Positions 17,425 to 52,915 of a stretch of 64,000 nt of DNA are shown here, in pieces. How positions within the stretch are numbered: position 1 is the first letter of the stretch; each line of letters opens with the position of its first letter. The translations under genes and the position numbers were made by a program. This stretch comes from Nostoc linckia z4 (lineage in GTDB: Bacteria > Cyanobacteriota > Cyanobacteriia > Cyanobacteriales > Nostocaceae). Location of the stretch: the NCBI RefSeq assembly GCF_002608075.1, contig NZ_LAHA01000036.1, forward strand, positions 1-64,000, given 5' to 3'. The notes beneath the pieces are model-generated. The model ran no database searches. It was not told the DNA's origin and was given only the letters and a program-made list of their open reading frames with translations.

Positions 17425-17445
17425 ATTGAATTCCTCAGTAAACAG

Positions 17446-35300: not shown

Positions 35301-35918
35301 TTACTGCATTCTGTCAATTGTGCGATATTGAATTGCTTCTGCTACATGATTCGGTCTTAGCTCTTCCTCGGCTGCTAAATCTGCAATCGTCCGTGCTACT
35401 TTGAGAATGCGATCGCTTGCTCTTGCAGATAAACCTAATTTTCTAATTGCCGTTTCTAATAAATTGCGACTTCCATCATCTAGCTTGCACCATCTTTGCA
35501 AATGATTACTTTGCATTTGGGCATTGCAACGCAGATTTGCTTCTGTTTGAAAACGATTAATTGCGCGATCGCGTGCTTGTTGTACTCGTTGACGCACCGA
35601 TGTTGATGCTTCTCCTGTGGGTTGTTGGGTAATTTCTTCTGGTTTTAAGCGATTCACCGCCACTTGTAAATCAATTCGATCCATCAACGGCCCAGAAAGT
35701 TTTGCCCAATATTGCTCGCGTTGCCTGGGAGAACAAGTACACTGTTGGATAGTATCGCCATAATAACCACAAGGACAAGGGTTGGTACTCGCCACCAAAG
35801 TAAACTGCGCGGGAAACATCACTGATAATTTAGTACGGGAAATCGTCACAAAACCATCTTCTAAAGGTTGACGCAGAAATTCTAAAACATCGCGTTTAAA
35901 TTCCGTCAGTTCATCAGG
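35301..35918 (-). pseudogene. comM: comM 3' half, separated from its 5' half by the island
   Basis: C-terminal 205 residues of ComM/YifB (Mg-chelatase-like AAA+ protein): DELTEFKRDVLEFLRQP (Walker B Asp-Glu), TLVASTNPCPCGYYGD, SGPLMDRIDLQV and the Mg_chelatase_C region. It lacks the N-terminal domain and Walker A. The open frame continues to an ATG at 35978 inside the island, adding 20 foreign residues, so a fragment could be translated but would not bind ATP. Native sequence begins at the codon for the residue before Asp-Glu (35916-35918, CCT). The 5' half is at 52001-52915. Confidence 0.95.
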
Positions 35919-35930
35919 ATATTTTATATA
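35919..35930 (+). repeat. Left terminal inverted repeat of the island
   Basis: ATATTTTATATA directly after the comM codon pair for Pro/Leu-Asp. Complementary, with one mismatch, to the right end at 51989-52000. Confidence 0.7.
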
Positions 35931-36172
35931 GTTATTTTTTATAACCCTTGCAAAATAAGCTTTGTAGCTGTATGACATTCATATAAACGATAAATAATAC
36001 CTTTTTCCTGTACATTTCTCTTACATTCAAATAAGACACGCAATTTTGACCAAACTGTAATTAACATTACCCGATGGCTTTGTTTATACCAAGGTAAGTA
36101 GTAGCAAAAATGCTACCCCAATGGGACTCGCCACCTTAAAACATAAATGGCTCAAAAATTCAAGTGTAAGAC

Positions 36173-36790
36173 TCAAAAATATACGATTGATAAAAAGCTG
36201 CGATCGTTAAAACTTGAATTAACTTTACGAATTACCGTAGCATTCTTGTCAATATAATCAAGTAAATCTGGTTGCCGTTCTAAATCATCTTTAAAGATAA
36301 TGGGTGGACAGGCAAGATGGTTATCGTCAAATCCTTTATCTCTCCAAGCACGACGTGTAATTTTTGGTAGAGCTACAATAACTCTGGCTGCAACCTTATT
36401 ATTAAGTAATAAATTTTCGTCACAGCGATTTATGATAGCAAGCGCTTGTTTTTCAGCTTGCTCGATGGGAGCGAGGTATTTGCTGTGAAAACTAGGTATC
36501 ACTTTCCATTGGTTAGCCTTAATGTTTTCAATATCATTGATATCGATAAATTTAACTTCGATAATTGCTAACCCCAAATTCTTGCTAAGAATTAAAATAT
36601 CCATCTCACGGCGAGTTTGTTCCTCGTGGGAGAAAGCGCGATACCCCCATATTGCAATCCCTTCTCCTTGGGTCAAGTTCTGACGAAGTGTGTCCCAAAC
36701 AATTCGTTCGCCTTGATAACCTGCTCCACCAATTGACTCAGTTTCAATAAATTTCCAAGTAACAACTTGGCTATTAGTAGCTGTAACCAT
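36173..36790 (-). CDS. NERD-domain nuclease-like protein
   Basis: 205 aa. GGAGYQGERIVWDTLRQNL, EMDILILSKNLGLAIIEVKF give the NERD (nuclease-related) pattern with Glu, Asp and ExK of a PD-(D/E)XK core. NERD domains are usually joined to helicase or kinase domains; here the domain stands alone with about 90 extra residues. Leftmost island gene, reading towards the comM 3' half. Possibly the nuclease arm of a defence or DNA-processing module. Confidence 0.75.
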   Translation of the reverse strand: MVTATNSQVVTWKFIETESIGGAGYQGERIVWDTLRQNLTQGEGIAIWGYRAFSHEEQTRREMDILILSKNLGLAIIEVKFIDINDIENIKANQWKVIPSFHSKYLAPIEQAEKQALAIINRCDENLLLNNKVAARVIVALPKITRRAWRDKGFDDNHLACPPIIFKDDLERQPDLLDYIDKNATVIRKVNSSFNDRSFLSIVYF

Positions 36791-37029
36791 AAATATAGCT
36801 AGTTAGTTTATATAAAATATTGCTGACATTGTAATTTAATTGTCAGTTAAAAATTTTATGCTGGAACGTTTGTACAACAATAAATTATTTTTAACTATTA
36901 ATTTATAAAATGTCTACTTGAAAAAGCTAATTAAATATTTATAGATATTTGATACACCATCTCAATTATTGGGAACACTAAAATTAACCTTTTGCCGCTA
37001 TAAGTGTATTTAATGGGTGTGTCTGGATA

Positions 37030-37395
37030 ATGAACAGTCTTTTAAAAATACCATCCCTGCTGTTCGGACTGATAAAGTCAAAATCTGAGAAATTTGAAAT
37101 CGAATGCTACGGTCAAAGCGATAGCGGACAGGATGCAGAGCAAATTCAACAAATTATGGAGTGGTTGTTTGCTAGCCTAATGAATGCAGGATATTTTGGT
37201 AGGTCGCATTTAATTTGGGATTTAGGCGATCAGGATTGGAAACAAATAGCGGTAACAGGGCTGCTAAGAGATGAGCCAGTATTTTTATATCGCTGCAATG
37301 ACAGACCTTCTTTACCACCTGAACACTGTTGCTGGCGCTTAATGACAGAATATCCATCTTTGAGAATTTATCAGTTGGAAGTCTTGGAGCGGTAA
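37030..37395 (+). CDS. Hypothetical protein
   Basis: 121 aa, ATG start with the stop close to a convergent small gene. Moderately hydrophobic N-terminus, then a mixed region with WLFASLMNAGYFGRSHLIWDLGDQDWKQI and several Trp/Cys residues. No family recognised. Island cargo; coding status supported by length and balanced composition only. Confidence 0.55.
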   Translation: MNSLLKIPSLLFGLIKSKSEKFEIECYGQSDSGQDAEQIQQIMEWLFASLMNAGYFGRSHLIWDLGDQDWKQIAVTGLLRDEPVFLYRCNDRPSLPPEHCCWRLMTEYPSLRIYQLEVLER

Positions 37396-37399
37396 ATTA

Positions 37400-37597
37400 T
37401 TATTCCATCTTTATCAAGCGAATTTCAGCATTGATAGGTTTCAATCCAGACACCCAGGATAGCAGTTTGGCAAGCCATCCCCAATGATCATTAGAATGTT
37501 GTACACTCCTTGTTGCGTCTAGCAAGGCTTGTTGAGTATGATAATTTTCTAGCCAATCAAGTCTTGGCTTCACGAGGACGATCTCGCTCATTCCCAT
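37400..37597 (-). CDS. Small hypothetical protein
   Basis: 65 aa, convergent with the preceding gene with 4 bp between stops. Trp-rich centre (NDHWGWLAKLLSWVSG). No ribosome site evaluated as strong; no family recognised. Confidence 0.4.
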   Translation of the reverse strand: MGMSEIVLVKPRLDWLENYHTQQALLDATRSVQHSNDHWGWLAKLLSWVSGLKPINAEIRLIKME

Positions 37598-37911
37598 TGA
37601 GCCATCTTCTTGAGCTTTACTTTGTATTCATTGATCAAAGTAACTTTATAAGTTTTTGTCATAAATTTTGAACTATTCTAAAATTAGCTTCTGTCAACAT
37701 ATAATCTATTCGGAGAAGATGCTTTTGGGATTTTTGCACAGATGCAGTAATCATAAGTGATTAGCCGAACATTATATAAAGCACGACGCCTACAAAATTT
37801 TGTAGTGCCGCCTGCTAAACTAGTCTCTTCACTGCTTGCTCTGGCATAGATAAACAATTGTAATGATTTTTGAGGCTATTTTTTATCTGAAGTCCATTAA
37901 ATATCTCGGCA

Positions 37912-39279
37912 TTATTGACCTAAAAAATCTTTTGAGAGAAGTGTTAAAACTCTTGAGCCAGTTCTCAAAGGAATAGAAGCATAAGAATGGGCTAAGGCAA
38001 CAGGAATAACAGCATCTTTGTAGAGTGCTGTTCCAATACGGTCTAATAATGCCAAGCTATCAGGCAAGATTTGATAATATATTGGGTTATGTGGATCATT
38101 TACTGTCTGGCTTAGTTTAGGAATAGTTATTGTTAACAACTGCTCAGTAGCAGTTTTATAAAAGAATTTTTGACCATAGTAAGTTTCGTAGCCGTAAATA
38201 GAGTTTGATAATGGTCTGGAAGCTAAAATATGTTGGTAAATGTAATTATCAGGTAGTAACATCAGGTTCTGAGGTGGAATATGCTGTTTAATAGCAGCAG
38301 CATGTTCAGCAAATTGACCACCCTTTTCAATACCTATAATTAGGGGAGGTTTTAACCGCTTTTGTGTTAATGATTCTTGTAGTTCATGCAGAAATCTCAG
38401 GATGGGAGCATGAAGCCAAGCTTGTGGGCCAAAAATAGCAAGTGGGCCATCCATAATGCAAGACACAGATCCTAGAGTTCGTGGCTGCCGCTGCCAAAGA
38501 AAATACAAGTATCCAACCATTGTAATATGTTCAAGGCAGCTCATTAAACGATTAAGGGCAGCTTCATTTTTCTGCTCTTCCGATACTTCTTCGTGTACCC
38601 TCAGTGCATCCGTAGGAAACAATTGCCCACCGCAAGAAGGACAGACAGTTCCAGTAAAAGGCACATCAATATCTCTACTAGAACATGAATGGGAAGCAGA
38701 GCAACGAGCAAGAATTACTCCATTATTGCGAGAGTTTTTATTACTGCGTTCCACTAAAAGCTTGAATATGTTAAGGAGGGAAGTACCTTCGACTGTATAG
38801 CTCTCAAAAATATCAAATATTTGCGCTCGCCAGGAATCTTTGACAGTTGGCATATCAAGACGACAGACGTTAGATCCCGGAAGCACTATAGAATATAAAG
38901 CTTCTTTGGTAGCTGTTCGGACAATAGCTGGGTCAACTAAGTGTTCTCGTCCTTGATTAAGAATTTGTTCTAGATTCACTAAAATACCAGCAATTTGTAC
39001 ATAGCCAATTCGAGTACTCGGAAAAGCTTTTTTGGTAACTACTTCTTGGGGAGAGCCATCAAAAGAAAAAACCCAGCGAATAGAAGTTTCTGTTGTGCCA
39101 AGCGTATTTGCGCTAATAAGGAGGCTAGAATCAATTTTAAGGTTTTCTTGATCGTTATAAATGCGAAAGCTTCTTAGGCTTTCTTTAATTAACTCGTTCT
39201 CTGCTATAGGGACATGACCAATACTTCTAGAACGTTCAAAGCCGCCAGATTGATTCAAATAAGGCATGATATTCCCCAT
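37912..39279 (-). CDS. NurA-like nuclease with zinc ribbon
   Basis: 455 aa. WVFSFDGSPQEV near residue 75 matches the first metal-binding Asp motif (DGS) of NurA 5'-3' nucleases, followed by RIGYVQIAG. A second acidic motif, IMDGPLAIFG, is near 276, and IGIEKGG near 312. A CxxxxxC...CPSCGG zinc ribbon is near 195-220. The upstream gene encodes a HerA-like hexameric ATPase, the known physical partner of NurA in archaeal end resection and in several bacterial defence loci. I infer a HerA-NurA complex. Confidence 0.8.
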   Translation of the reverse strand: MGNIMPYLNQSGGFERSRSIGHVPIAENELIKESLRSFRIYNDQENLKIDSSLLISANTLGTTETSIRWVFSFDGSPQEVVTKKAFPSTRIGYVQIAGILVNLEQILNQGREHLVDPAIVRTATKEALYSIVLPGSNVCRLDMPTVKDSWRAQIFDIFESYTVEGTSLLNIFKLLVERSNKNSRNNGVILARCSASHSCSSRDIDVPFTGTVCPSCGGQLFPTDALRVHEEVSEEQKNEAALNRLMSCLEHITMVGYLYFLWQRQPRTLGSVSCIMDGPLAIFGPQAWLHAPILRFLHELQESLTQKRLKPPLIIGIEKGGQFAEHAAAIKQHIPPQNLMLLPDNYIYQHILASRPLSNSIYGYETYYGQKFFYKTATEQLLTITIPKLSQTVNDPHNPIYYQILPDSLALLDRIGTALYKDAVIPVALAHSYASIPLRTGSRVLTLLSKDFLGQ

Positions 39280-39440
39280 TTAGTATCTAAGTAAAGACAG
39301 TATTTTAGACTTAAGCAACCTGTGATGTAAAAACTAACTTAAGCCTGACTGAGCAAGAAATAGAGAATAAATTAAATAAATTTTTGCTTAGTCAGGCTTT
39401 CGCTTACTAATAACTTTAGTAATTTCGGTAAAGCCCTGTT

Positions 39441-41627
39441 TTATGGCTCTGGTGTCGAGGTGTTTAAAGATTTTATTGCCAGATTACTAAGACAAGCAGC
39501 GCGTGCTGCTAAAATTTTAGCTTCGTCAAACAGATCAATTTGTGTAGGAATAATGTAGCGACCACTACGGGTTTTTATACGTGCAAACCCTACATCTTCT
39601 GATTTCAACGTCAAATCACTGAAATCTTGAAAATCGTAATATTTAGAAAGCTCTTTAACCTCTGCATGGTTATTCAAATGCGTTACAAGCCAATTAGATG
39701 TATTAGAAAGAATAAATGGGTCAACACTACTAACTTCTTGGGTAGCATAAATTAGACCAATTTTATATTTAGCGGCTTCTTTAGCTAGACGCACATAAGG
39801 GTCAGCTTCTTCAGGAACATTCATGCGATCGCGATTAAATAAGCGATGGGCTTCTTCAATATAAATTTGAATTTGGTGTGGCTCATCTCCAGCAGAAAAT
39901 CGGCGTGAAGCATCTTGTACTATATAATTTATTATTCTTTCAGAACAAAACTTAAGAATTGTTTCAGAGCCTAAAGAAAGGTCTATGATAACTATTTTAC
40001 CTTGCACTAACTCTTGAAGAACTGCTTCAGCATAGTCACTTGTGCTGACAAGTGAATGATAAACACGTAGTGGTTCTAATAAACGAAAACCAGTACCAAC
40101 AGAGCCTTTGAACAAAGCTAAAATTGCCTCTAATTCAGCATCTAACCAATCGCTAAAAAGGTTTTCTATATCCGATGCTTCTTTTGCTGCTCTTAGCTCA
40201 TCTTGAGTAGGAGTAGGATTTTTTTTATTGGCAGCTTTTGCTGTATTTTTAGCATTATCAATAGCAGTAGAGTGAGCAGCCAGGAAAGCTTGCCAAAAAG
40301 AAACTAAGTTTTGTTTGTTTAAAGTTAATATTCCATTACTAACTGTTTTTAATTGGGCTATATCACTTGGTAAAGATTGGTTTATTTGTGCTAAAATGCT
40401 AGCATTAACAGCAATAGTGATATTAAAATTATCAGGAACTAAAAAATTAGCTTTTGCAAGCGTGGCATACAACGCAGCACGTCTTCTTCTGGCTCTTTGA
40501 TAAGCCCCGCGATCAGTTTGCTGATCGGCAGGGCCAATAACGTCCGCAGAAAGAAAACTTCTAATATAGTTTGATGTCTGGCTCCTTGGGTTTAAATAAG
40601 CAGTTATAATTGCCCAAGTTACATCTATAGTGTCATTTGAATAAAAATTAGAAGCCAATGGTCTAATTCCAGGTTCGACACTATTGATACCATATCTAAA
40701 TACTGTTACAAATTCATGCCCAATTTGGCTCAAAGCTGTCCGATCTTGAACGTTAACATTAGCATATTCACCTGCTGGATCAAACAAAAGTTGACCAATC
40801 GTTTGTCCTGTTTCAGCAGCATACTGGCAAACAGCAGTAGCAATCGTTTTCATGGTATTAGACTTACCTAGTCGAGTCATACCAAAAACAGCAGTTTTTA
40901 ATGCCACAAAATCTTTAACATTAACCCTTACAGGTACTGCAACGTCCTGAGGGCGTCCAGCATTCATTCGGGATCTTCGATTGGTAGAACTATATCGTAC
41001 TGTCCCAATTTGTATACGTCTTGGGGAAGTATTAGTATTCTGACGTTCTAGCTCTTCTGCTTGTGTAATCTCTGGATAACTTGTTATTATTGCAAGACTT
41101 TGACCATAAGGTTTATAAACTTTATACCGACTGGATGAATAAAATGTTTCAATATCGCTACCGAACTCCAAAATTGTTTTTGGGCCTACTTCTAAGTCAT
41201 AAAAGGTTCCTAAAACTTTAGCCTTGAGTGCAGAAAATTGAATTTCGTTACGAGTCAATACATCTAAAATTGCTGGTGTTGTTGCAGCAGTTGTTGAACC
41301 ACTAGTTTCAATCATTGTTCGCATAGCTTCAGAGCGTACTTGTACTAACTCCGACTCAGCAGGAAGTGGTGCTGGGTTAACAACGCGTAACAAAATTATT
41401 TCTTCATCATCTGCATCTAATGCTTCATTTGGAGTTAATGCTGTAGCAAGCAGAAAGCAATGTTGTGGAATTCCTCCTGCTTGCTTTTTCCATAAATCAT
41501 TAGTTAAGACAAGGCACTCATTGTAACCCATAGTATAAATACCACCTACAAGAGTAGCATCAGATAATAATGATCTAATTAGAAGTTCTTCGTTAATAAT
41601 TTGAGACCCAAGAGACATATTTAGCAT
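39441..41627 (-). CDS. HerA-like FtsK/HerA-superfamily DNA translocase
   Basis: About 728 aa from MLNMSLGSQ, chosen because AAAGGA sits 8 nt before it; the frame is open further upstream. N-terminal HAS-barrel-like region, then Walker A FGMTRLGKSNT near 250, Walker B IYIEEAH near 587, and LIYATQEVSSVD. A long insertion (about 370-470) contains a charged helical stretch. Forms hexameric rings by family. Expressed ahead of the NurA-like gene, 161 bp apart. Confidence 0.83.
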   Translation of the reverse strand: MLNMSLGSQIINEELLIRSLLSDATLVGGIYTMGYNECLVLTNDLWKKQAGGIPQHCFLLATALTPNEALDADDEEIILLRVVNPAPLPAESELVQVRSEAMRTMIETSGSTTAATTPAILDVLTRNEIQFSALKAKVLGTFYDLEVGPKTILEFGSDIETFYSSSRYKVYKPYGQSLAIITSYPEITQAEELERQNTNTSPRRIQIGTVRYSSTNRRSRMNAGRPQDVAVPVRVNVKDFVALKTAVFGMTRLGKSNTMKTIATAVCQYAAETGQTIGQLLFDPAGEYANVNVQDRTALSQIGHEFVTVFRYGINSVEPGIRPLASNFYSNDTIDVTWAIITAYLNPRSQTSNYIRSFLSADVIGPADQQTDRGAYQRARRRRAALYATLAKANFLVPDNFNITIAVNASILAQINQSLPSDIAQLKTVSNGILTLNKQNLVSFWQAFLAAHSTAIDNAKNTAKAANKKNPTPTQDELRAAKEASDIENLFSDWLDAELEAILALFKGSVGTGFRLLEPLRVYHSLVSTSDYAEAVLQELVQGKIVIIDLSLGSETILKFCSERIINYIVQDASRRFSAGDEPHQIQIYIEEAHRLFNRDRMNVPEEADPYVRLAKEAAKYKIGLIYATQEVSSVDPFILSNTSNWLVTHLNNHAEVKELSKYYDFQDFSDLTLKSEDVGFARIKTRSGRYIIPTQIDLFDEAKILAARAACLSNLAIKSLNTSTPEP

Positions 41628-41750
41628 AATTTTTCCTTTATTAATCAATTTTGCGTAACAAATCAACTTTAAATTTGCACTTATTAAGATGCAATGACTA
41701 AACCCATTGCATATACGAAACCTGAACAAGCATAAAACTTTTAATTCAAA

Positions 41751-41999
41751 TTAATTTAATAAATATTTCGCCAACAAGCTCTCTCCTTTAGAACCCATTG
41801 ACTCTAATATCCCCTCAATCTTCTCCATTGCTAATGGTGAGGGTTTATAATGTCCGTTTTCCCAACGATTAATTGTGCTATATCTGACGTTTAGATTGAT
41901 AGCAAATTGCTCTTGTGTAAGCCCAGCCAATAGCCGCATTTCACGAAGTAACTGTCCTACCTCTGGCTGGTTGATAGCTAAGGGTTTTCTAATAATCAT
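41751..41999 (-). CDS. Xre-family helix-turn-helix regulator
   Basis: 82 aa. LREMRLLAGLTQEQFAINLNVRYSTINRWENGHYKPSPLA is a complete HTH_3 domain. First gene of the HerA-NurA group, divergent from the methylase genes, so it is placed to control both directions from the 42.0-42.7-kb gap. Confidence 0.88.
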   Translation of the reverse strand: MIIRKPLAINQPEVGQLLREMRLLAGLTQEQFAINLNVRYSTINRWENGHYKPSPLAMEKIEGILESMGSKGESLLAKYLLN

Positions 42000-42671
42000 T
42001 AACCTCTAAACTTGATTCACTAGCTTAAAATAGCAGGTGCTATACCATTTGGTACATCATACCCGCATTGACACTCATAAACCAGGAATACTAAATTTTG
42101 ATACAAAACTTTACGGCTCTTTAGTATCTGTGATTCCAAACTTTTAGTTAATTCTCATAACTTGGCTTTAGAATCCAGTTTAAAAGCCTAAATCTGGCAC
42201 ATAAGCATAAAATGCTAAAAATAATAAATGCTATTATTATCTAGCAAAAGTTTTAAGCTTTTTAGAATACATATTCAGCATACTAAATAATGAAGAACCA
42301 ACTTTATATACCTATTTAAAATAGGCTTAGACATTTTCAATAATATTTAGCAATAATATATTTATTATTTTAGGTTATGTCAAAACTGTAAAAAATTAAT
42401 TTATTAAGACATATAAATTTGTGTATTACAAGTATTTAAAATTTGGGCAATACAATAAATGTTCAAACCTCAAGTATACTAGTAATAAACTATATAATAA
42501 ATACTTAAAATTATCAATACAAGCGTTAAACTTATTTAATGGTTGTATTAAGAATACTAGTTGCATCTCCTCCATACTAGTAAATAATTGTATTTATATA
42601 AAATAAGTTTTCAAAAGGGTAAGCCGAAAAAAATTCTTATAACACTTGGATCGATTTGGAATACAATTATT
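42000..42671. other. Very AT-rich divergent intergenic region in the island
   Basis: 670 bp between the Xre gene and the methylase operon. Extremely AT-rich, with many AATAAT/TATTTA runs and no convincing gene (open frames here have skewed composition). A control region for both directions. Given the island-encoded DnaB helicase, an origin is conceivable but no iterons were identified. Confidence 0.4.
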
Positions 42672-42884
42672 ATGGTAGATCAATTTGATTGTAATAATAT
42701 AGATAATAATTTTAGAGCATTTTTAGAAGGATTATGTCAAGCTGGTTTTGGAAATTTACCTATTTCAGTGTTATATCAATTTTATTTGTATATTTTTGAG
42801 ACATTCACATATATTCCTCTTCCTTTTGATGATAATTGGGAAGAAGTGTTAAACCTTGCAGAAGAAGTATTTGTAGGAGATTAA
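42672..42884 (+). CDS. Small acidic protein coupled to the methylase
   Basis: 70 aa, MVDQFDCNN start. Its stop overlaps the methylase start (TAATG), which is strong evidence for translational coupling. Acidic, with aromatic-rich centre (LYQFYLYIFETFTYIPLPF). No family recognised; could modulate the methylase. Confidence 0.6.
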   Translation: MVDQFDCNNIDNNFRAFLEGLCQAGFGNLPISVLYQFYLYIFETFTYIPLPFDDNWEEVLNLAEEVFVGD

Positions 42885-43762
42885 TGAGTTTTAAACGTAT
42901 TTATAGATCACCTCTTCGTTATCCTGGAGGAAAGCAAAAAGATGTTCCATTTTTATCTCAGTTTTTACCTCATTGTCAAGAATTTAGAGAACCTTTTTTA
43001 GGAGGTGCTAACGTACTTATTTATGCTGTGGAAAACTCTTTAGCAAAAAGCTATTGGGGAAATGATTTAAATACTTCACTAATAGATTTTTGGCAACAAG
43101 TTAAACTTGATGCATATCAACTAGCGAATATAGTTGAAGAAATTAGAGAAGAATATAAAGGAGAGCAAGGGAATTGTAGAGAATGGCAAATTTTCCGCAA
43201 AAGATTTATGTCTAAACTTAATAAATTAACTAATAACCAATTAAATACAGCAGCTAAGTTTTTTATATTAAATCGTAGTACATCTAGTGGCTCCTCTGAA
43301 TGTGGGGGTATGACTCAAGCTGCATATTGTCAACGCTTTACATTATCTAGCATTGAAACATTAAAAAAAATGATGGGTGTTTTAGAAAATGTTGATTTTA
43401 CTAATTTAGACTATGAGGAAGTTATAAAAGCTCCAGGAAAGGAAGTATTTATTTTTTTAGATCCACCTTACTTTTCTTCTAAGGCTTCTGGTTTGTACGG
43501 GAAAAATGGCAACCTACACAGAACATTTGATCATCAACGTTTATCAAACCTATTAAAAGATTGTCCTCATGATTGGTTAATGACAATTGATAGCTGCCAA
43601 GAAATTAAAGAATTATATGGTTGGGCTAAACAATTAGAATGGGAAAAAGCTTATGGTATGACTAACTTTGGTGGACGAAAATCTAAACGGGGTGAAGAAT
43701 TACTTGTAGCTAATTTTACTATTGGAAATTTAAATAAAAAGCAATATATACAATTATCTTAA
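42884..43762 (+). CDS. DNA adenine methylase (Dam/D12 class)
   Basis: 292 aa from MSFKRIYR. RYPGGKQK near residue 12 (SAM-binding FxGG-type motif), FREPFLGGANV, and FLDPPYFSS near 192 (catalytic DPPY) identify an N6-adenine methyltransferase of the alpha/D12 class. No cognate restriction gene of known type is adjacent; the gene at 43.9 kb is a candidate. The recognition site cannot be predicted. Confidence 0.92.
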   Translation: MSFKRIYRSPLRYPGGKQKDVPFLSQFLPHCQEFREPFLGGANVLIYAVENSLAKSYWGNDLNTSLIDFWQQVKLDAYQLANIVEEIREEYKGEQGNCREWQIFRKRFMSKLNKLTNNQLNTAAKFFILNRSTSSGSSECGGMTQAAYCQRFTLSSIETLKKMMGVLENVDFTNLDYEEVIKAPGKEVFIFLDPPYFSSKASGLYGKNGNLHRTFDHQRLSNLLKDCPHDWLMTIDSCQEIKELYGWAKQLEWEKAYGMTNFGGRKSKRGEELLVANFTIGNLNKKQYIQLS

Positions 43763-44469: not shown

Positions 44470-44595
44470 CAATTGAAATGGAGTACTCCTGCAATATCCG
44501 TCAACCCAATAACCCACCCAGGATTTTTTAATTCAGCAAATGACTTAAGTTATAAGGTATTAACACAGGCAGTTTAAGTGAATTAGTTATTTAAA

Positions 44596-45906
44596 TCAAA
44601 CTGTGATGTTACGAAATTCTCCAATAGTAGCATCAAAAAGAACTTTACAAACTCCAGTAGCACCATTTCGATTCTTTGCTACGTTAATTTCCATTACACC
44701 ATTATCTGAGGTATTAGAATTATAATATTCATCTCGATAAAGAAGCAGTCCTACATCCATATCCTGTTCTATATCTCCTGAATCCTTGATATCTGCGATT
44801 GTAGGGCGTTTATCAGTCTGATTTTCGACACCCCGATTAATTTGTGCTAATGCCACAAAAGGGCAGCTAAATTCTTTTGCAAGGTCTTTAAATGCACCAG
44901 AAAATTTCCCAACTGCTTGCGCTCGATTCGAGGCTGCTCTGTCTCCTAATTTTTGGATGTAGTCCATGACTATCAATCCTAAATTCCCTCTTTCAAACTT
45001 AATTCGACGCAATGCAGAGCGCATTTTAGTGGGATTCTGGAGGCTAGCTGGTGTATCATCAATAATGATAGGTAAGCTATACAATACCTCCAAAGCTTTA
45101 CGAAGTTTAGCTATTTCACTTTTATAAACTTTGTTATGAATCAGCCGATGAGAGTCAATTTTAGCGTGCATTGCTAAAAATCGCTTCGTTAGCTGTTCTT
45201 TATTTGTCTCAGCACTGAAAAACACTACGGGAAGATTGTAGGTTAGAGCAATGTGATTTACAAAATGACAGCCGAGCCAAGTTTTTCCCATTGAAGCTCT
45301 GGCTGCAATCACGATTAAATCTTCATTCAGCAATCCACCCATTAATTTGTCTAAGTCCATTAATCCTGTGGATAAAGCAGGGGTTACTTCCTGCCCTAAT
45401 TGCTTCACAATCAAGGCTAGAGAATTGCTAATTGCTTCTGGGCTAAATTTATCAACTTTATTTTCTGTAATTTTGAATATTTTATCTTCTGATAAGTCAA
45501 TAATGTTCTCTAAATCAATAGTAGTGTCAAAACCTAGCTCAACAATTTTAGTTCCTGCTTCAATTAATTGGCGGCGTTTATACTTTTCTAAAACTAATTC
45601 AGTATAGCTATCTATATTGTCTGTTGATACTTTATTATTGGCTAACTGGGCTAGTTTATTTCGTCCGCCAACGTTTCTCAGCAGCTTGTGGTCGGACAAC
45701 CAACTGCCAACAGTCGTTATGTCTGTTAGCTTATCTTGATAATATAATTCTACAGCTGCTTTATAAATTCGTTGATGGGCAGATAAATAAAAAGCATCGA
45801 CAGGAAGTTTATCAACGATTTTACTAATAGCACTAGCATCTAGCAAAATACTGCTTAGTATGCTTTCTTCGGCATCTGTATCCTGTGGGAGAAATTTATC
45901 AGTCAT
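44596..45906 (-). CDS. DnaB-like replicative helicase
   Basis: 436 aa, near the normal DnaB length. The N-terminal domain opens DTDAEESILSSILLD. The RecA-like domain has ARASMGKTWL (Walker A) near 206, VVFFSAET, and VMDYIQKL (Walker B). QINRGVENQTDKRPTIADIKDSGDIEQDMD is the typical C-terminal signature. Last gene of the recombinase operon, overlapping the upstream gene by 8 bp. It suggests the island drives its own replication after excision, or loads helicase on recombination intermediates. Confidence 0.92.
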   Translation of the reverse strand: MTDKFLPQDTDAEESILSSILLDASAISKIVDKLPVDAFYLSAHQRIYKAAVELYYQDKLTDITTVGSWLSDHKLLRNVGGRNKLAQLANNKVSTDNIDSYTELVLEKYKRRQLIEAGTKIVELGFDTTIDLENIIDLSEDKIFKITENKVDKFSPEAISNSLALIVKQLGQEVTPALSTGLMDLDKLMGGLLNEDLIVIAARASMGKTWLGCHFVNHIALTYNLPVVFFSAETNKEQLTKRFLAMHAKIDSHRLIHNKVYKSEIAKLRKALEVLYSLPIIIDDTPASLQNPTKMRSALRRIKFERGNLGLIVMDYIQKLGDRAASNRAQAVGKFSGAFKDLAKEFSCPFVALAQINRGVENQTDKRPTIADIKDSGDIEQDMDVGLLLYRDEYYNSNTSDNGVMEINVAKNRNGATGVCKVLFDATIGEFRNITV

Positions 45907-46834
45907 TGGGTTGACTAAAAATACTACTTAAAACTTTCAGTTCTTCTAGTGAAGCCAATTCTTCCTCTATTGTTGACTCTGTATAATTCCAATTATCTGT
46001 TGTATAGCGATTAGATATGGGCTTAAGTATTTTATTTGGTACAGATTCTTTATTAATTGCTGCATATAGCCATTTACTAGAATTATTAATTTTAGCGCCT
46101 TCATTTATGGCTTCTTTTAAAGCTTCAATTGCATTGATAACAACAGATTCTGGTTTTGATTTAATCTGCTCCTGAAAGGTTTTATTAAATGGAATATTTA
46201 GCAAGGATAACTCGTTTTTAACTTGTTCCAGAAAGCTGAATGGCTGAGGTTTTAATTCATCTTTGTGATTTTTAGATGTTTTAACACTAATTGGTACAAC
46301 ATTATCTCCTTGAGCAGGTAGATTTTGTACAGGTAAATCAACTACCTTTCCTTGGGCAGTAAGCGAAGAACCTTGCAATTCTTTAATTACAGTTCGTAAA
46401 CGCTTTACCTCATCCTCTAAGTCTACAACCTGTGCAGCCTGTGCTAGAAGCTCTTTGTTCATTCGCCGCTGCTCATCTAGTATTGTTTGCAATCGCTTAT
46501 TTGATGCTTTGAGTTTTTCTAGTTCATTTTCTAATACATCAATGTTACGTGCAGTGCGTGGTTTCTGGGTGGACTCCTTCTGTTGTTTCTGTGCTTGTTC
46601 AATTTCATTACGCAGGTGTTTGTTAACAAAGCCAACACTGAAACCAGTTCGCCTCGCCACCTCATTCTGGCTAATAGTGACACCCTGATCTTGCATTTCC
46701 TGAATGACAGCTTTAGCAGAAATAACTCTCTCTTCACGTTCACGGGCAGAACGTTCTCGCACCTGTTGACCATGACGGTTACGTTCTGCCTCATCCCAGT
46801 TTCGGTGAATTTGTCGCTTTATTGTCTCGCTCAT
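45899..46834 (-). CDS. Helix-turn-helix/coiled-coil partner of the recombinases (TnpC/DUF6262-like)
   Basis: 311 aa. After a basic N-terminus comes a predicted HTH (ISQNEVARRTGFSVGFVNKHL, about 55-76) and a long coiled coil (about 80-155). The layout matches the DUF6262/TnpC-like proteins that accompany tyrosine-recombinase groups. The C-terminal 150 residues are specific to this protein. It overlaps the third recombinase gene by 44 bp. Confidence 0.7.
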   Translation of the reverse strand: MSETIKRQIHRNWDEAERNRHGQQVRERSAREREERVISAKAVIQEMQDQGVTISQNEVARRTGFSVGFVNKHLRNEIEQAQKQQKESTQKPRTARNIDVLENELEKLKASNKRLQTILDEQRRMNKELLAQAAQVVDLEDEVKRLRTVIKELQGSSLTAQGKVVDLPVQNLPAQGDNVVPISVKTSKNHKDELKPQPFSFLEQVKNELSLLNIPFNKTFQEQIKSKPESVVINAIEALKEAINEGAKINNSSKWLYAAINKESVPNKILKPISNRYTTDNWNYTESTIEEELASLEELKVLSSIFSQPND

Positions 46835-49265
46835 CTGCTCCCTCTAGTGCATCAATAATACTCTCTAGAGCGTTTACAATTTGTTGATAACTTTCATAAA
46901 TTTCTGAAGAGCCCTGACTAAAGGCAATCTCCTCTTTTATTTTTAATTGCTCAAGTTGAGATTTGTAATGGGAAAGTTTATCGGCAGAAGCAACATGAAA
47001 ACCGCAGGTGTAGCAGCGTCCAAAACGGGGACAGAATTCACGGAAGGAGCAGTAGCCATAAAGGGGTTCCCCGTTGAGCATTTTTAGCCCATCCAATTCG
47101 TGTAATTCTGGATTCTGGCGCAGGCTTTCAGGATTTAGGCTTTCAGGATTGCTATCGTAGGGATAAAATTTCTGATCAACATTTGCCATTACAGTAGCTA
47201 CATCCAGCAGTTGACCAGGCTCATAGCGCGTATAGTGCTGCTTTGTAGTGCTTTGACGGCGGTGTTTAAGCCACCTACGGACAAAATTTAGGCTATAGCC
47301 AATGTTTATAAGTTGTGTTGCTCGTGATGGCCGTAGAATAGCTCCAGTGAAGTTTACCAGTTTTCCGTTGCTGTCTAAGATATTACATTTTTCGATGAGA
47401 GATTTAATGACTTTAACCATAGGGTTAGCAGGAGCTACAACTATTGGCGGGCGTTTTATAGCTTTCATGCGTGGATAGTTTGGATAACCAGTTATCCCTA
47501 ATCCCTGATAATGGCAGAAAAGGTAAGGATAGTCATCACCAAAAAGTTGATTAATGTAAGTTTTCTGCTTTTTAATAAGGTGAACAATCTCAGTTGGAAC
47601 GGGTAGCCTATGTTCGTCTGATTGTTTTTGACGCTCAAACTCCACCCACCAAATAGTCCCGTCCTGGTCGAGCTTGCAACAGTCTTTAAGAAGATAGCAC
47701 AGTTCGCTTGGACGTGTACCAAGATGAAAACCTAGCATGAACATTAGCTGTAGTGGTTCTGGTAAAATATGAAGATTCTCTATAATTGCCTCGATAACAG
47801 AGTCTTCTAATGGATCAGGTTCTTCATTGAAAAGCTTTGGAAAGTCAAAAGAAATAATTAGTGTAGATGGAGTGATAAAATTCTGCGTTTCATTTCCCCA
47901 GTTAAAAAAATTGGACAGTTGGGAAAGAGTCTTGCTGAATGTACTATCTGCTAAATTGCAAAGTCCTTGATTGTAATAAGTTGCTAGCAAATTTCGGTCT
48001 ATTTCCTCCATACAAGTTACGTCCTGCTGTTCAAGAAACCGCCCAAAAGGCTTAAAAATATCTATGTCCGTATACAATGATGTTGCTTTTATGCCAGAAT
48101 TGATACGCCAAATGAAATAAGTTTTAAGCAAATTTACGAACCATTTTGAACCACAGTTAGTAAAGTTTAGAAATAAGGCCTTTAATTTGTACTCCTCAAT
48201 GCCTGGATAGAGTTCTCGGAAATCCCACTTGTCTTTCTCAAACTCCCAAGGCTCAGAAGGGATTGTTTTTCCAAGCTTTCGTCTTATATTATTATTCCAG
48301 TCTTTTCCTTCTCCCCTAAACTGTTGACCACAACCTAAGCAAACCATTGTTTTTATTTGCTTAGAGCTTCTATTGTCATAATGCTTGCCCTTTAACACTA
48401 CCTCATTTTGCTTACAATTCGGACAAGAAATATTGTCTATAATCAGCAACCCTGAGTCATCCCAATAGCTATGTATAACTTTACCTTCACGGTAAATGTT
48501 TTTTTTCTCTCTACGGCCCAAAGTAAAGCTCTTGCGACATTTCTTACATAAGCATATCTGGACAATTCCATATTTACGTTCTGTAGGGCTTCCATGTTTA
48601 ATAGTTTCAGAACTCTCGCAGTATGGACAATTTACACCCGTAGGTTGAGCTTTAGTTTTCTTAGCACCCAAAGTAAAGCTCTTGCGACATTTATTACACT
48701 CGCATTTCTGGACAATTCCATGTTTGCGTTCTGTAGGGCTTCCATGTTTAACAGTTTCAGAACTCTCGCAGTATGGACAATTTACACCCGCAGGTTGAGC
48801 TTGAGTTTTCTTACCGCCCAAAGTAAAGCTCTTGCGACATTTATTACATAAGCATGGCTGTACAATTCCATGTTTGCGTTCTTTAGGTCTTTCTTTTTTA
48901 ATAGTTTCAGAACTATCACAGTATGGGCAATTTACACCCGCAGGTTGAGCTTGAGTTTTCTTACCGCCCAAAGTAAAGCTCTTGCGACATTTATTACATA
49001 AGCATATCTGGACAATTCCATGTTTGCGTTCTGTAGGGCTTCCATGTTTAATAGTTTCAGAACTCTCGCAGTATGGACAATTTAAACCCGCAGGTTGAGC
49101 TTGAGTTTTCTTACCGCCCAAAGTAAAGCTCTTGCGACATTTATTACACTGCCATCTCTGGACAATTCCATGTTTGCGTTCTTGAGGTCTTTGTTTTTTA
49201 AAAGTTTCAGAACTATCACAATATGGGCAATTTACACCCACAGGTTGAGCTTTTCTTTGACTCAT
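46791..49265 (-). CDS. Third tyrosine recombinase with five tandem zinc ribbons
   Basis: 824 aa. Residues about 4-253 are five 50-residue zinc-ribbon repeats (CPYC...CNKCRKSFTLG each, InsA-like), then a sixth divergent ribbon (CPNC...CLGCGQQF) near 285-320. The recombinase domain follows: first Arg in GFHLGTRPSELC, LKH near the end and a Tyr in HYTRY near 678. The HxxR triad position reads AILR, so the usual His appears replaced by Ala. Extra cysteines occur near 755-770 (CSFREFCPRFGRCYTC). Probably binds the ends of the island. Confidence 0.88.
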   Translation of the reverse strand: MSQRKAQPVGVNCPYCDSSETFKKQRPQERKHGIVQRWQCNKCRKSFTLGGKKTQAQPAGLNCPYCESSETIKHGSPTERKHGIVQICLCNKCRKSFTLGGKKTQAQPAGVNCPYCDSSETIKKERPKERKHGIVQPCLCNKCRKSFTLGGKKTQAQPAGVNCPYCESSETVKHGSPTERKHGIVQKCECNKCRKSFTLGAKKTKAQPTGVNCPYCESSETIKHGSPTERKYGIVQICLCKKCRKSFTLGRREKKNIYREGKVIHSYWDDSGLLIIDNISCPNCKQNEVVLKGKHYDNRSSKQIKTMVCLGCGQQFRGEGKDWNNNIRRKLGKTIPSEPWEFEKDKWDFRELYPGIEEYKLKALFLNFTNCGSKWFVNLLKTYFIWRINSGIKATSLYTDIDIFKPFGRFLEQQDVTCMEEIDRNLLATYYNQGLCNLADSTFSKTLSQLSNFFNWGNETQNFITPSTLIISFDFPKLFNEEPDPLEDSVIEAIIENLHILPEPLQLMFMLGFHLGTRPSELCYLLKDCCKLDQDGTIWWVEFERQKQSDEHRLPVPTEIVHLIKKQKTYINQLFGDDYPYLFCHYQGLGITGYPNYPRMKAIKRPPIVVAPANPMVKVIKSLIEKCNILDSNGKLVNFTGAILRPSRATQLINIGYSLNFVRRWLKHRRQSTTKQHYTRYEPGQLLDVATVMANVDQKFYPYDSNPESLNPESLRQNPELHELDGLKMLNGEPLYGYCSFREFCPRFGRCYTCGFHVASADKLSHYKSQLEQLKIKEEIAFSQGSSEIYESYQQIVNALESIIDALEGADERDNKATNSPKLG
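48500..49252 (-). repeat. Five 150-bp coding repeats
   Basis: In-frame tandem repeats of exactly 150 bp within the third recombinase gene. Copies are highly similar at DNA level (for example CTTGCGACATTTATTACA recurs in four), so they are recent expansions or kept uniform by conversion. Confidence 0.92.
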
Positions 49266-49277
49266 TATGTATCTCTT

Positions 49278-50723
49278 TTACTGTTGCAAGCTAACAATGA
49301 TAGGGTTGAGAATACTGATGAAATGACGAGCGCTATTAGCGCGACGACTGTCTGATTGATTGTTCTCCAGACATTTATCTAATAACTGTTCGTTCGTCTG
49401 TTTTATCTCTATTAATTTAAGTAAATGCTCCTGTGTAAAGCGAATATGTTCACAACTTAAACATACATATTCAGACTGGCATTCTTTAATAATGTCAGGT
49501 CGAGCGCAAAGTCCTAGTTCCACCTGTCTAGCTGCCCATTCTTCACGAATGAATTCACTATCTTGGTCTGTAAAATAAATAGTAGTCCGTTCTCCATCTC
49601 TGTTTACTAGCACTCTCTCTATACGCTTTTCCTGCTGTTGTGGTGAAACGTAAACATACGAGTCCTGCATATCGGGATTAGTATGTCGTAACCCATGCTG
49701 AATTAAATCTGGGCGTTTACCCATACGATCAGCGACTGTTGCATAAGTGCGTCGAAACATGTGAGTCGTTACATACGGCAGTTTGCCATCATTAGTACGA
49801 ATATCGTTTTCTTCAATAAGCGATTTTAGTATCCGATTAAGTTTTTTCCCTACTTGTTTAATTTGCTCTTGATGGTACTCAAAAATGAGTGGCCAACCTT
49901 GATTAGAAAACTGTGGCCTACGGCTTTTCCAGTTGGGAAACAACCACGGGAATGTGTCCCCAAAATGCTCCCGGACAAATGCCTGCTGTTGATGCACTAG
50001 CGGTATCAATTCTTCAGGTATGTCTTGCTCTTGTTCTATGTCATTTTGTTTACCTGTACACAGACGGATTCGGTCTATCTCCTTGCGTCTCCTTAAGCAA
50101 TCCAAAGGAATTTTAGAAAGTTCTATACTTCTAGTTCCCAACGCCTCATGTAACTTGAAGATGAGATAGATAGGTTTCTCTAGTTGTTCCAAAGCTAAAT
50201 CAATTTTATATTTAACCTCCTCTGGGATAATGTTAGGAGATTTCGCTTGTTTATTAGAGCGCGAACTCCATTGAATTTTAAACTGAATACAATCTAGTTC
50301 TTTTAGTACAGAAAGGAATCCTAAAAGACCACCTTTTATTACTGGGTTTACACTTTCTGCCCACTCTTGCACAACTTGATAATTTAATACAGATACTGTG
50401 ACATAGCCCTGATTAACCAACCAAACACTAAATCTATTCACTGAATTAATAATAGTCTTTAACCTAGATAGGCTCCACCGCCGATTTCCGACCGCAATAA
50501 GTGTTGCCAGCTTAAGTAAATCTTTCAACCAATCTAGAGTAATTCCCTGAAAATTTATAGTCTGACGTCCGATTATATGTGCCTGTTCTCTCAGTAGAGG
50601 TAAGTCCTGCTCTATATTCCAGATATCTCGTTGCAACTTTACATCAGTGATATATGTAGATGCTATATTTCCAGGATCAGAAAGTATTTCAAACAGTTGT
50701 GCCTCTTGTAATGCTAGGGTCAT
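49278..50723 (-). CDS. Second tyrosine recombinase
   Basis: 481 aa. Catalytic elements: Arg in ALGTRSIELS, His-x-x-Arg in HMFRRTYATVA, His in GLRHTNPDMQDSY and the Tyr in DSYVYV near 355. Additional CLSCEHI motif near 425 may form part of a metal site. Overlaps the first recombinase gene by 4 bp (ATGA) and ends 12 bp before the third. Confidence 0.92.
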   Translation of the reverse strand: MTLALQEAQLFEILSDPGNIASTYITDVKLQRDIWNIEQDLPLLREQAHIIGRQTINFQGITLDWLKDLLKLATLIAVGNRRWSLSRLKTIINSVNRFSVWLVNQGYVTVSVLNYQVVQEWAESVNPVIKGGLLGFLSVLKELDCIQFKIQWSSRSNKQAKSPNIIPEEVKYKIDLALEQLEKPIYLIFKLHEALGTRSIELSKIPLDCLRRRKEIDRIRLCTGKQNDIEQEQDIPEELIPLVHQQQAFVREHFGDTFPWLFPNWKSRRPQFSNQGWPLIFEYHQEQIKQVGKKLNRILKSLIEENDIRTNDGKLPYVTTHMFRRTYATVADRMGKRPDLIQHGLRHTNPDMQDSYVYVSPQQQEKRIERVLVNRDGERTTIYFTDQDSEFIREEWAARQVELGLCARPDIIKECQSEYVCLSCEHIRFTQEHLLKLIEIKQTNEQLLDKCLENNQSDSRRANSARHFISILNPIIVSLQQ

Positions 50724-51934
50724 TTTCCTTCTGTTACACGTTCCATTTCATTCAACATTTCAGCCTCGTCAAAGGAATGCTCGTAAATATCTAAGGTTGT
50801 AGCGATTGACTTATGCCCCAATTGTCGTTGTACACTCTTTGCTGTCTTCTCTTGATCTTGCCCTTTTTCCCTTCCCTTACGAATGTTGTGAGTTGCAAAG
50901 GTGTGCCTGAACAAGTGCGGATATACCCTTGTTATGTCGATATCTGTTTTTTGATGAAGTCGTTTTAGTAACTTGTTTAGATTTTGCGGTTCTAATGGTT
51001 TACCGTAACTGGGTGAACCTTTATGTAAAACGACGAAAACCATGTCATGTCCCAAATTTTTGACAACATCATGGGGATAATCGATATCAGAGTATTTACT
51101 AAGGATTTTGCAAAACTCTCGATTTGTCATAAGTCCAGCTAAAGAAAGTTCGCGTTCCCGACCTTTAGCATAAGCATGATTAATATTGTCTCGCCGTACT
51201 ATCTTCAGTGTTCGAGCATTCCAATCTATATCAGACCAATGAAGCCCCAGTAGTTCACCTTTCCGCATACCAGTGTCAGCCAGGAGCCAAAGGATTAGCT
51301 TGTCTCGATCTTGGTAACAGGCATCAATCAGGGTATGCACTTGATCAGGGGTTAAACAACCAGGAAACTTTTCCCGCTCCTTATTTTTTACCAACCTGAC
51401 TTTAACAGGTGACTTTTTTCTGTAGCCTGCAAACATCCCACTTTGCTTCTCTCTACGGAATTTGCTATATACGCACAGATTTTTGTCATCAAAAGTTTTT
51501 CTCCTGACGTGAAAATCATAGAATTGCACCACAGCAGTCAATGCTAGGTTCACTGTAGATTCGTTACGTGGAACCAAGATATTTTCTGAGTTAGAAGAGA
51601 CAAAATTTTCATCAAGCAGCAACCCACCAGTTAAATACCAGTGGTTGAACTCAGCCATTTCCTCTAGATCAAAGTCCTGCCAGTTAAGCACTTTTATGTC
51701 TAGATATTTCCAGAAATCTTTAAGCTTCTCTGCGTATGTCTTAATTGTTCCGACAGCAGAACCGCCTAATTGCTTAAACCGCAGAAACTGCTCAACAGGT
51801 TTAATAACCTGATAATTATCATCTACCAGATGCCACCGAACTAATTCTTTACCGTCCGGTAGGCGTTGTACTGAGTCCAGAACTTTAGCCACTATGAATA
51901 CTGTGAATAGCGTGAATAACTTACTTAAAAGCAA
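50720..51934 (-). CDS. First tyrosine recombinase
   Basis: 404 aa, canonical XerC/D-like layout: SAM-like N-terminal domain (about 45-160), Arg in DTGMRKGELLGL, HLFRHTFATH, LGHKSIATT and Tyr in LDIYEHS near 383. Promoter-proximal gene of the operon, starting 66 bp inside the right end. The first 15 codons are hydrophobic and may not be used; GTG at about 51892 (VAKVLDS) is a plausible true start. Confidence 0.92.
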   Translation of the reverse strand: MLLSKLFTLFTVFIVAKVLDSVQRLPDGKELVRWHLVDDNYQVIKPVEQFLRFKQLGGSAVGTIKTYAEKLKDFWKYLDIKVLNWQDFDLEEMAEFNHWYLTGGLLLDENFVSSNSENILVPRNESTVNLALTAVVQFYDFHVRRKTFDDKNLCVYSKFRREKQSGMFAGYRKKSPVKVRLVKNKEREKFPGCLTPDQVHTLIDACYQDRDKLILWLLADTGMRKGELLGLHWSDIDWNARTLKIVRRDNINHAYAKGRERELSLAGLMTNREFCKILSKYSDIDYPHDVVKNLGHDMVFVVLHKGSPSYGKPLEPQNLNKLLKRLHQKTDIDITRVYPHLFRHTFATHNIRKGREKGQDQEKTAKSVQRQLGHKSIATTLDIYEHSFDEAEMLNEMERVTEGK

Positions 51935-51988
51935 GTCTACACGATTAATGGTAATGTTGTTGTTGTTTTTTTGAATAGATAGTTAATG

Positions 51989-52000
51989 TATATAAAACAT
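51989..52000 (-). repeat. Right terminal inverted repeat of the island
   Basis: Minus strand ATGTTTTATATA, 11 of 12 identical to the left end. It abuts the last native comM codon (TTT, 52001-52003). Confidence 0.7.
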
Positions 52001-52915
52001 AAATAATATGCCATTGTGAGATAATGATATTTCCCCAGGACGAGGAAAGCTACCACCACCTACCAGAGAGGGGCCGGATGCTGAGTGATGGGGACTGCGA
52101 AAAGGGCGATCGCGTACTAAAGAACCACGATTTTTCAATAAACCAGCCACCGAATGAATTCGAGTCACCTCTAAAGATTCAGCAAAACTCAAAGGCGGCA
52201 AAATTCCCGGTAAACGCCGCGCTAACATAGTTTTACCGCTACCTGGCGGCCCGACAAACACCAAGTTATGCCCGCCGGCCGCAGCAATTTCTAAGGCACG
52301 ACGCGCATGAGTTTGTCCTTTAACATCTTGTAAATCTGGTGAATGTACAGACGTTACATGTAACGTCTCTAAATTATCAGCAATCTGCACAGGTTTGTAA
52401 CGCCCTGGATTATTTAAAAAGTCCACCACATCCGAGAGATGTTGGCAACCATAAACAGCCAAACCTTCCACCACTGCTGCTTCTTGGGCATTATCAGCAG
52501 GGAGAACTAAACCTATAATTCCCATCTTTTGGGCAGCAGCAGCGATGGGTAATACACCAGCCACTGGACGCAAACTGCCATCCAGTGATACCTCACCTAA
52601 AAATAGATAATCTCCTAATAAATCAGCGCTAATTTGCTCAGAAGCCGCCAAAATTCCCACACTAATAGGTAAATCGAAACAGGGGCCTTCTTTGCGTAAA
52701 TCGGCCGGAGTTAAATTAATGACAATTTTTCGCATAGGAAAGGCGAAACCTGCATTTTTCAGGGTTGCCTTCACTCTTTCTCTTGATTCTTGAATCGCTG
52801 AATCTGGAAGCCCCAAGACAACAATTCCCGGTAATCCTCCTGAAACATCGACTTCCACGCCTACTTTAACAGCATCGATACCAACAATTGATGCACTCCA
52901 GACTCTAGCAAGCAT
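52001..52915 (-). pseudogene. comM: comM 5' half, interrupted by the island
   Basis: N-terminal 305 native residues of ComM: Lon-protease-like S5 domain (GLPGIVVLGLPDSAIQESRER) and the start of the AAA+ domain with Walker A GPPGSGKTML and FRSPHHSASGPSLVGGG. It ends at NGILF, where LDEL is expected; the frame runs only 5 more codons into the island (MFYIH, stop at 51983). Together the halves give 510 residues, the normal family length. ComM is a branch-migration helicase needed for efficient natural transformation in other bacteria. Confidence 0.95.

Follow-up and report, generated by a model that had tools for sequence, protein, structure and literature searches.

In Acinetobacter, disruption of comM and insertions into the gene are described as lowering transformation, and the insertions as often bringing defense genes (PMC11472951). 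The account in PMC4774983, which lists comM insertions in several proteobacteria, proposes that mobile elements target competence genes as a protection against curing, and PMC10293859 describes TnsF of Tn6022 and Tsy as recognizing the DNA that encodes the Walker B motif of comM. For the SE elements, PMC10214605 gives a junction rule by which the 6 bp of the target end up at attL and those of the donor's left flank at attR. Here we describe an island that splits comM in Nostoc linckia z4, on the first 64,000 nucleotides of contig NZ_LAHA01000036.1 (the whole stretch analyzed, hereafter the window). The island is a real, site-specific, and recurrent element, a cyanobacterial comM-directed variant of the Tn554/SE/GInt group. 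The parallel with the comM islands of Acinetobacter, drawn in a preliminary description of the locus, was rightly drawn.

The split comM gene

The features at the interruption, in window coordinates, are the following.

51998..52915, minus strand: 5′ half of comM, codons 1-306, with Walker A; its reading frame runs into the island (open reading frame to 51983)
51998..52003, minus strand: attL, 6 bp TTTATG (host Phe-Met codons), one mismatch to TTYYTN
35922..51997, minus strand: the island, 16,076 bp, with 36.7% GC versus 43-46% in the comM halves and the same ends in three further genomes
35916..35921, minus strand: attR, 6 bp TATCCT, not comM-like and different in each of four insertions
35301..35915, minus strand: 3′ half of comM, from the Walker B Asp-Glu through the stop

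Codons 1-306 run from 52915 to 51998, and the gene picks up at 35915 with Asp-Glu-Leu-Thr-Glu-Phe; its last codon ends at 35304 and the stop occupies 35301-35303. Joining the flanks by script gave a single in-frame gene of 510 codons containing GILFMDELTEF, in agreement with the preliminary description, which had the two ends of one complete 510-residue ComM 16 kb apart, on the same strand and in collinear order. The N-terminal half holds Walker A (GPPGSGKT) and the C-terminal half opens with the Asp-Glu of Walker B, so that the insertion lies just before this pair, as had been stated; it occupies the same nucleotide in three other assemblies. The interruption consists of 16,076 bp (35922-51997) plus 6 extra bp (35916-35921). 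The two open reading frames first reported for the halves were overlong: 51983-51997 and 35922-35978 are read-through into the island, and 35916-35921 is the 6-bp footprint. From the split between Walker A and Walker B we infer, as was done before, that ComM has probably lost its ATPase function.

An assembly artifact is an unlikely cause of the split because the same junction recurs in the three other assemblies, in one of them on a 7.7-Mb contig. No second, intact comM, which would have spoken against the preliminary description, was found in the genome by a search with the C-terminal half or with the ChlI domain. The C-terminal half has one match there at E ≤ 1e-30, and the sole other ChlI-domain match is a 511-codon frame on contig C40 that also matches DnaB_C, a pair of domains that points to RadA.

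Ends and recombination genes

The island begins with a compact set of genes, all read in the same direction, and closes with a short conserved end.

51978..51997, minus strand: left end, TTTTATATACATTAACTATC, with an inverted copy of its first 9 bp at the right end
50720..51934, minus strand: tnpA, tyrosine recombinase, 404 residues, catalytic boxes present
49278..50723, minus strand: tnpB1, second tyrosine recombinase, 481 residues, boxes R198, H321, R324, H347, and Y; Pfam score slightly below the cut-off
46791..49265, minus strand: tnpB2, 824 residues, tandem zinc ribbons and tyrosine recombinase; Arg and Tyr retained, His of the HxxR box replaced
45899..46834, minus strand: tnpC-like protein (DUF6262, by Pfam), 311 residues
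44596..45906, minus strand: DnaB-type replicative helicase, its start overlapping tnpC by 8 nt; present in three of three full-length copies
35922..36214, minus strand: conserved right end of about 292 bp, 80-93% identical to three other copies

The boxes of TnpA, TnpB1, and TnpB2 were read by the tyrosine-recombinase motif, and the first arginine is present in all three. A homolog of TnpB2 is annotated as transposase B of Tn554 (E 4e-14), and DUF6262 is annotated as a neighbor in many of the TnpB2 matches. A TnpB2 profile built from this island and from a second family of comM elements (see below) matched 13 solved chains, the majority of them from tyrosine recombinases and zinc-ribbon proteins. 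The operon is similarly spaced in the full copies, with -4 nt between tnpA and tnpB1, +12 to +23 between tnpB1 and tnpB2, -44 between tnpB2 and tnpC, and -8 to -20 between tnpC and dnaB. The three full copies share their first 7,453-7,960 bp (7.5-8.0 kb) and last 292 bp, and their middles are unrelated. The last 200-400 bp of the island have 30-32% GC. By eye, a 9-bp inverted repeat is clear at the ends of three of the four copies; the AT-rich ends also permit short direct matches. A phage origin was considered and rejected: five distant TnpA matches (26-31% identity) occur in phage records and none in viral contigs.

The site alone might suggest a Tn7-like transposon (AbaR/Tn6022) or Tsy, which insert in the same gene and the same Walker B region; Tsy, as described in PMC10293859, likewise has two tyrosine recombinases, one of them with a zinc-finger N-terminal region. 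However, family scans of 11 island proteins, each with at least one of Pfam, NCBIfam, and PHROGs and with small open reading frames left out, revealed no product of a Tn7-type (tnsA/B/C, tniQ) or GIY-YIG gene. The island moreover has three recombinases rather than two, its DUF6262 gene comes after and not before that of the zinc-finger recombinase, and its ends are inverted, which sets it apart from Tsy as described. We regard membership in either of these groups as very improbable.

The 6-bp footprint

Among comM copies with no interruption at the Walker B site, collected with a search pattern that required Phe as first codon and left the second codon free, 32 of 32 read TTYYTN, the second codon always being YTN. 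On the tnpA side of the four insertions the 6-mers are TTTATG (window), TTTCTA, TTTTTG, and TTTTTG, three of which fit this form. The far-side 6-mers are TATCCT, ATGTCG, TGCAAA, and CCATCC. Because these differ in all four insertions and none is comM-like, they suggest four separate arrivals from donors outside comM. With the exceptions discussed below, the island thereby follows the SE-type rule, with the 6 bp of the target at attL and imported ones at attR, and each insertion carries a readable trace of its last home. In a circle of the island, the 6 bp would be enclosed by the 9-bp inverted repeat in three of the four copies.

A donor copy was sought on plasmids; none was found, and the nearest is only an island in umuC of Acaryochloris. 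This relative, on plasmid pREC1 of Acaryochloris marina (L162, 7682-17616), has almost the same termini, interrupts umuC at conserved codons, and itself holds an IS4-type insertion. Its junction 6-mers, GCTTCC and GCTTCT, look like the outcome of a move from one umuC to another.

Recurrent interruption of comM in the family

A search of 217 genomes of the family for the left end, allowing up to three mismatches, located it in four, with a single occurrence in each and always at the same position of comM; the four carriers span two GTDB genera. The TnpA of genome G186, from the same genus, is 96% identical to that of the window, and that of G164, from the other GTDB genus, 82%; G184 holds a 2.6-kb remnant. 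The islands measure 16,076 bp (window), 12,421 bp (G186), 16,775 bp (G164), and 2,574 bp (G184). Close relatives of TnpB2 (65-78% identity) were found in 2 of 216 other genomes, again G186 and G164, and ten further genomes have relatives at 29-34%; the cross-genome protein searches scored up to nine candidates per genome, or up to four for TnpB2 and DnaB, and may miss weaker relatives. Genomes G083 and G146 contain multicopy relatives outside comM (L141-L147), and one copy in G083 (L143) has the same four-gene order with little cargo. Element boundaries were obtained for these relatives; their 6-mers could not be read with confidence and were not used.

A census of comM with the C-terminal half covered 192 genomes and was completed by follow-ups of 19, 14, and 33; the tally was made by hand, with the full-length number obtained by subtraction. 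The frame is full-length in 165 of the 192. Four carry the present island, and in another four (G183, G028, G047, and G136) comM is split at the Walker B site and one half adjoins a large serine recombinase, an unrelated class. G106 is split there as well, on a 3.7-kb contig with no visible recombinase. Three genomes (G191, G098, and G023) are split by a second family of tyrosine-recombinase elements, and G187 is broken near the site of that family. Other breaks or decay affect five (G188, G175, G014, G063, and G141), and short frames lie near contig ends in three (G142, G056, and G065). The search gave no match in the remaining six (G002, G061, G082, G135, G155, and G161), three of which are less than 90% complete.

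The second family is an element of three genes, tnpA, tnpB, and tnpC, that sits at the codons preceding Walker A and is oriented the other way; its TnpA is a distant relative of that of the window (33-37% identity). Its tnpA-side 6-mers, TTGATT, TTGATA, and TTAATT, are host-like in all three cases, TTGATA not being among the 36 intact copies counted, and its far-side 6-mers, TTGATT, TCAAAA, and TAGATC, are foreign in two of three. In G023 the comM halves lie on two contigs and the tnpA-side end is less clear. At the serine-recombinase sites, the halves are 60 kb apart in G183, 42 kb apart in G028, and on two contigs in G047; the recombinase domains were scanned in G183 and G028 and assigned by sequence likeness in G047 and G136, where the frame of G136 has only 353 codons. 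In G136 the halves lie on contig C1 at 6,387,290 and 962,445, about 1.67 Mb apart if this 7.09-Mb contig is circular; the recombinase adjoins one half, and genes for a phage portal and terminase lie near the C-terminal half. In G183 (L082) and G028 (L080), the frame of the N-terminal half continues into a stretch resembling a signal peptide and a domain resembling a nuclease (546 and 490 codons, respectively), and the fused frame of L080, when scanned, matched Pfam SNase. These frames are suggestive of a possibly secreted nuclease adjoining a broken transformation gene.

In this one family, comM is thus targeted repeatedly, at two motifs, by three element families, and by two unrelated recombinase classes. 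The preliminary description had named relatives with separate halves and unrelated sequence between them as speaking against it. Such relatives exist, and taken literally the objection holds; however, their separate halves are other insertions at the same or at a second precise site, which strengthens the idea of targeting.

Extra 3′ fragments of comM were also seen. Genome G005 (L068) has an intact comM (16093-17625) and an additional 3′ half (1106-1726) that starts at the Walker B site and is 95.3% identical to the intact one, as if an element had brought a replacement 3′ half or comM had been regained. Further fragments, near or away from the main gene, occur in G129, G120, G066, G149, G019, G056, and G106; they are possibly scars of older insertions, and some may be contig-end effects.

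The DnaB helicase

The helicase gene adjoins the gene in the TnpC (DUF6262) position not only in the island but also on plasmids of Stanieria and Chondrocystis (L173 and L174), the Chondrocystis copy being annotated as two pieces. The plasmid DnaB proteins are about 60% identical to that of the island, and the TnpB2 relatives there 26% and 30%. In a tree of 34 rows, the four island-type DnaB proteins (window, G186, G164, and Stanieria) group with a support of 92/69, with one long-branch row beside them; L182 and L153 sit on long branches, and L182, which groups with the island copies, is perhaps a wrongly extracted open reading frame. Among 386 genomes of the phylum, with up to four candidates each, nothing at E 1e-110 except the window's own DnaB exceeded 47% identity. 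At the dnaB loci examined (L153-L160 and L177-L205), tnpC adjoins only the island's own gene.

The words "helicase" and "dnaB" are absent from the main text of PMC9345347, and PMC10214605 has no occurrence of DnaB terms; within the library and terms searched, no title or start of an abstract pointed to a link between DnaB and Tn554/SE/GInt elements. The link offers an entry point for working out the copy-out step of these elements.

A bolder proposal goes further, and we think it has well under an even chance of being right. In it, dnaB would be a fifth, translationally coupled transposition gene that drives copy-out, and the comM copies would stem from a home outside comM, with the imported 6 bp, foreign in four of four insertions, as a return address. 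The element would lead a Tn7-like life in two niches, with comM as a vertical home that also stops curing by transformation.

Proposed mechanism and its alternatives

We propose the following sequence of steps. The recombinases would join the ends of the island into a circle that includes the 6 bp that flanked the tnpA side at the previous site, and DnaB may help the copying step. On insertion of this circle into comM, the 6 bp of the target would stay at the junction beside tnpA, and the imported 6 bp would mark the opposite junction. The split is expected to abolish the ATPase activity of ComM and to lower recombination of imported divergent DNA, which would remove a route by which the host could swap the island for an empty allele, and the cargo would defend the host against phages. 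That the element protects itself by disabling transformation, as the preliminary description held, is plausible and has already been published for comM elsewhere, whereas here the gene is split by another kind of element and in another phylum; it fits the repeated targeting of comM and the presence of comEC, which forms an intact 807-codon frame, so that DNA uptake may persist.

Several observations weigh against this account. TnpB2 lacks one catalytic histidine (HxxR), and a direct tblastn search with the TnpC-like protein reached only four cyanobacterial plasmids and not TnpC of Tn554. The attL of the window contains one base absent from the 32 uninterrupted copies. The two junction 6-mers of the umuC island are one base apart, and one far-side 6-mer of the second comM family (TTGATT) is comM-like, so that not every member of the group has a foreign far side. 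Neither the umuC island, as annotated, nor the second comM family shows a DnaB, and DnaB is therefore not needed by the whole Tn554/SE/GInt-type group. A circle junction was sought in the four assemblies and none was found, each having one comM C-terminal half. Relaxed selection on the split comM was tested and showed no sign, the dN/dS values being 0.023-0.099 as against 0.048-0.136 between intact copies; these low values would reflect either recent insertions or a residual function of comM. With these points included, we estimate the probability of a comM-specific mobile island of the Tn554/SE/GInt group, together with the proposed circle, DnaB, and self-protection steps, at about 85%.

The two open halves of comM, which show no relaxed selection, could also be explained if the island left the chromosome in some cell type and restored the gene, as the developmentally excised elements in nifD, hupL, and fdxN do; the preliminary description had offered this as its alternative. 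Removing the island and 6 bp does yield the exact 510-codon frame, and large serine recombinases, the class of many interruption elements according to PMC4874684, occupy the same site in four other genomes. The gene set, however, is of the Tn554/SE/GInt type and not a single xis recombinase. SEs form no empty site in the descriptions of PMC10214605 and PMC9345347, and GInts do so in some strains only, as reported in PMC5385486. The patchy presence (4/217) and the differing far-side 6-mers point to recent separate arrivals, and comM is absent from Table 1 of PMC4874684, a survey of interrupted genes in heterocyst formers. Finally, the four assemblies show neither an intact second comM nor a circle junction, although drafts would miss rare forms. 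The proposal is thus not supported, and we give it a very small chance; regulated restoration of comM by this island is possible but unlikely, and the question is more worth asking of the serine-recombinase islands that occupy this site.

The last step of the mechanism has a competitor of its own. The gene could be merely a conserved and dispensable docking site, with the loss of transformation a side effect without benefit; since this view competes with that step only, its odds overlap with those of the whole, and we place it somewhat short of even. What the elements hit is the DNA for the best-conserved motifs, Walker B here and Walker A in the case of the second family, a point that PMC10293859 makes likewise for TnsF, and a related island uses umuC and not comM. 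On the other side, two unrelated recombinase classes pick comM within one family, and competence genes are targeted repeatedly elsewhere, according to PMC4774983. Repeated targeting of comM fits docking and self-protection alike, and sequence alone cannot separate them. With comM as a docking site in cyanobacteria too, the hypothesis of chromosomal curing becomes testable in a photosynthetic group.

Cargo

Between dnaB and the right end lie the following frames.

43906..44469, plus strand: open reading frame of 187 residues, no family; a relative occurs in G186
42836..43762, plus strand: D12-class adenine DNA methyltransferase, cargo, by family scan
41751..41999, minus strand: small helix-turn-helix protein, cargo, by family scan
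39441..41729, minus strand: HerA-type ATPase, cargo, by family scan
37912..39279, minus strand: NurA-type nuclease, cargo; no family match, 25% identity (E 7e-33) to an annotated NurA
37030..37395, plus strand: open reading frame of 121 residues, from the list of open reading frames only
36173..36790, minus strand: NERD nuclease-related domain protein, cargo, by family scan

A profile of the NurA-like protein gave no match among solved structures. The NurA of the HerA-NurA pair (37912-41729) is 37% identical to a protein encoded on a haloarchaeal plasmid (L175), where a DUF87 ATPase, a DNA methyltransferase, and a helix-turn-helix gene adjoin the NurA-like gene. The copy in G186 carries a C5 methyltransferase and a Z1 protein, and that in G164 type I restriction genes; the cargo differs between the three full copies and is exchangeable. 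Judged by family names, the cargo genes are probably anti-phage (defense) genes, and no complete named system was called.

Comparison with known systems

We leave the island unassigned to GInt, SE, Tn554, or Tsy, since in each comparison one or more features disagree or are undecided; its likeness to GInt and SE lies in gene kinds and layout. Like GInt (ginABCD), as described in PMC5385486, it combines three tyrosine recombinases with a small TnpC-related protein at one end and has variable cargo, a short AT-rich far end, a 6-nt staggered exchange, and strong site specificity. Unlike in GInt, the target is comM and an inverted repeat at the ends encloses the 6 bp, and whereas GInt cargo follows directly after ginD, dnaB stands between operon and cargo in three of three full copies. 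The two junctions of a GInt bear direct repeats of 10-11 nt that are imperfect; the ends here show the 9-bp inverted repeat and would allow short direct matches as well. GinC is reported to lack the first arginine, a trait that is perhaps not a defining one; here all three recombinases keep it, and TnpB2 instead lacks the HxxR histidine. The main text of PMC5385486 nowhere uses the word "cyanobacteria."

With the SEs the island shares the order of recombinase, second gene, large recombinase, and TnpC-like gene (compare intA-tfp-intB-srap), inverted ends, and the 6-bp rule. In contrast to Tfp, its second protein has a complete recombinase motif, and the SEs are reported from Gammaproteobacteria, with no DnaB in the accounts at hand. 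The SEs are further marked by a circle of one strand that leaves no empty site behind. Homology of TnpB, a DUF6262-type neighbor, a 6-bp footprint (in the description of PMC10214605), and one specific target gene connect it with Tn554. Tn554, however, has three genes (tnpA-tnpB-tnpC) and targets radC, and the island has one recombinase and dnaB in addition, whereas the second comM family (G191, G098, and G023) shows the plain three-gene Tn554 layout.

Tsy and Tn6022, as described in PMC10293859, resemble the island in their insertion at comM Walker B and in a zinc-finger protein of tyrosine-recombinase type, but differ in gene set, order, and ends: Tn6022 is Tn7-like and has target duplications, and Tsy has a tyrosine recombinase and a small helix-turn-helix gene upstream of its TnsF-like zinc-finger recombinase, an order and number not found here. 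The interruption elements of heterocyst formers share the host group and the interruption of a gene, but in the account of PMC4874684 they carry an xis recombinase, have direct repeats, and are excised in development.

As far as searched, three aspects appear to be new, namely a comM-specific cyanobacterial variant of these elements, a DnaB helicase coupled to the recombination operon and found likewise on two distant cyanobacterial plasmids, and the repeated targeting of comM within one family. A docking site known in several proteobacteria is now also found in a heterocyst-type cyanobacterial family.

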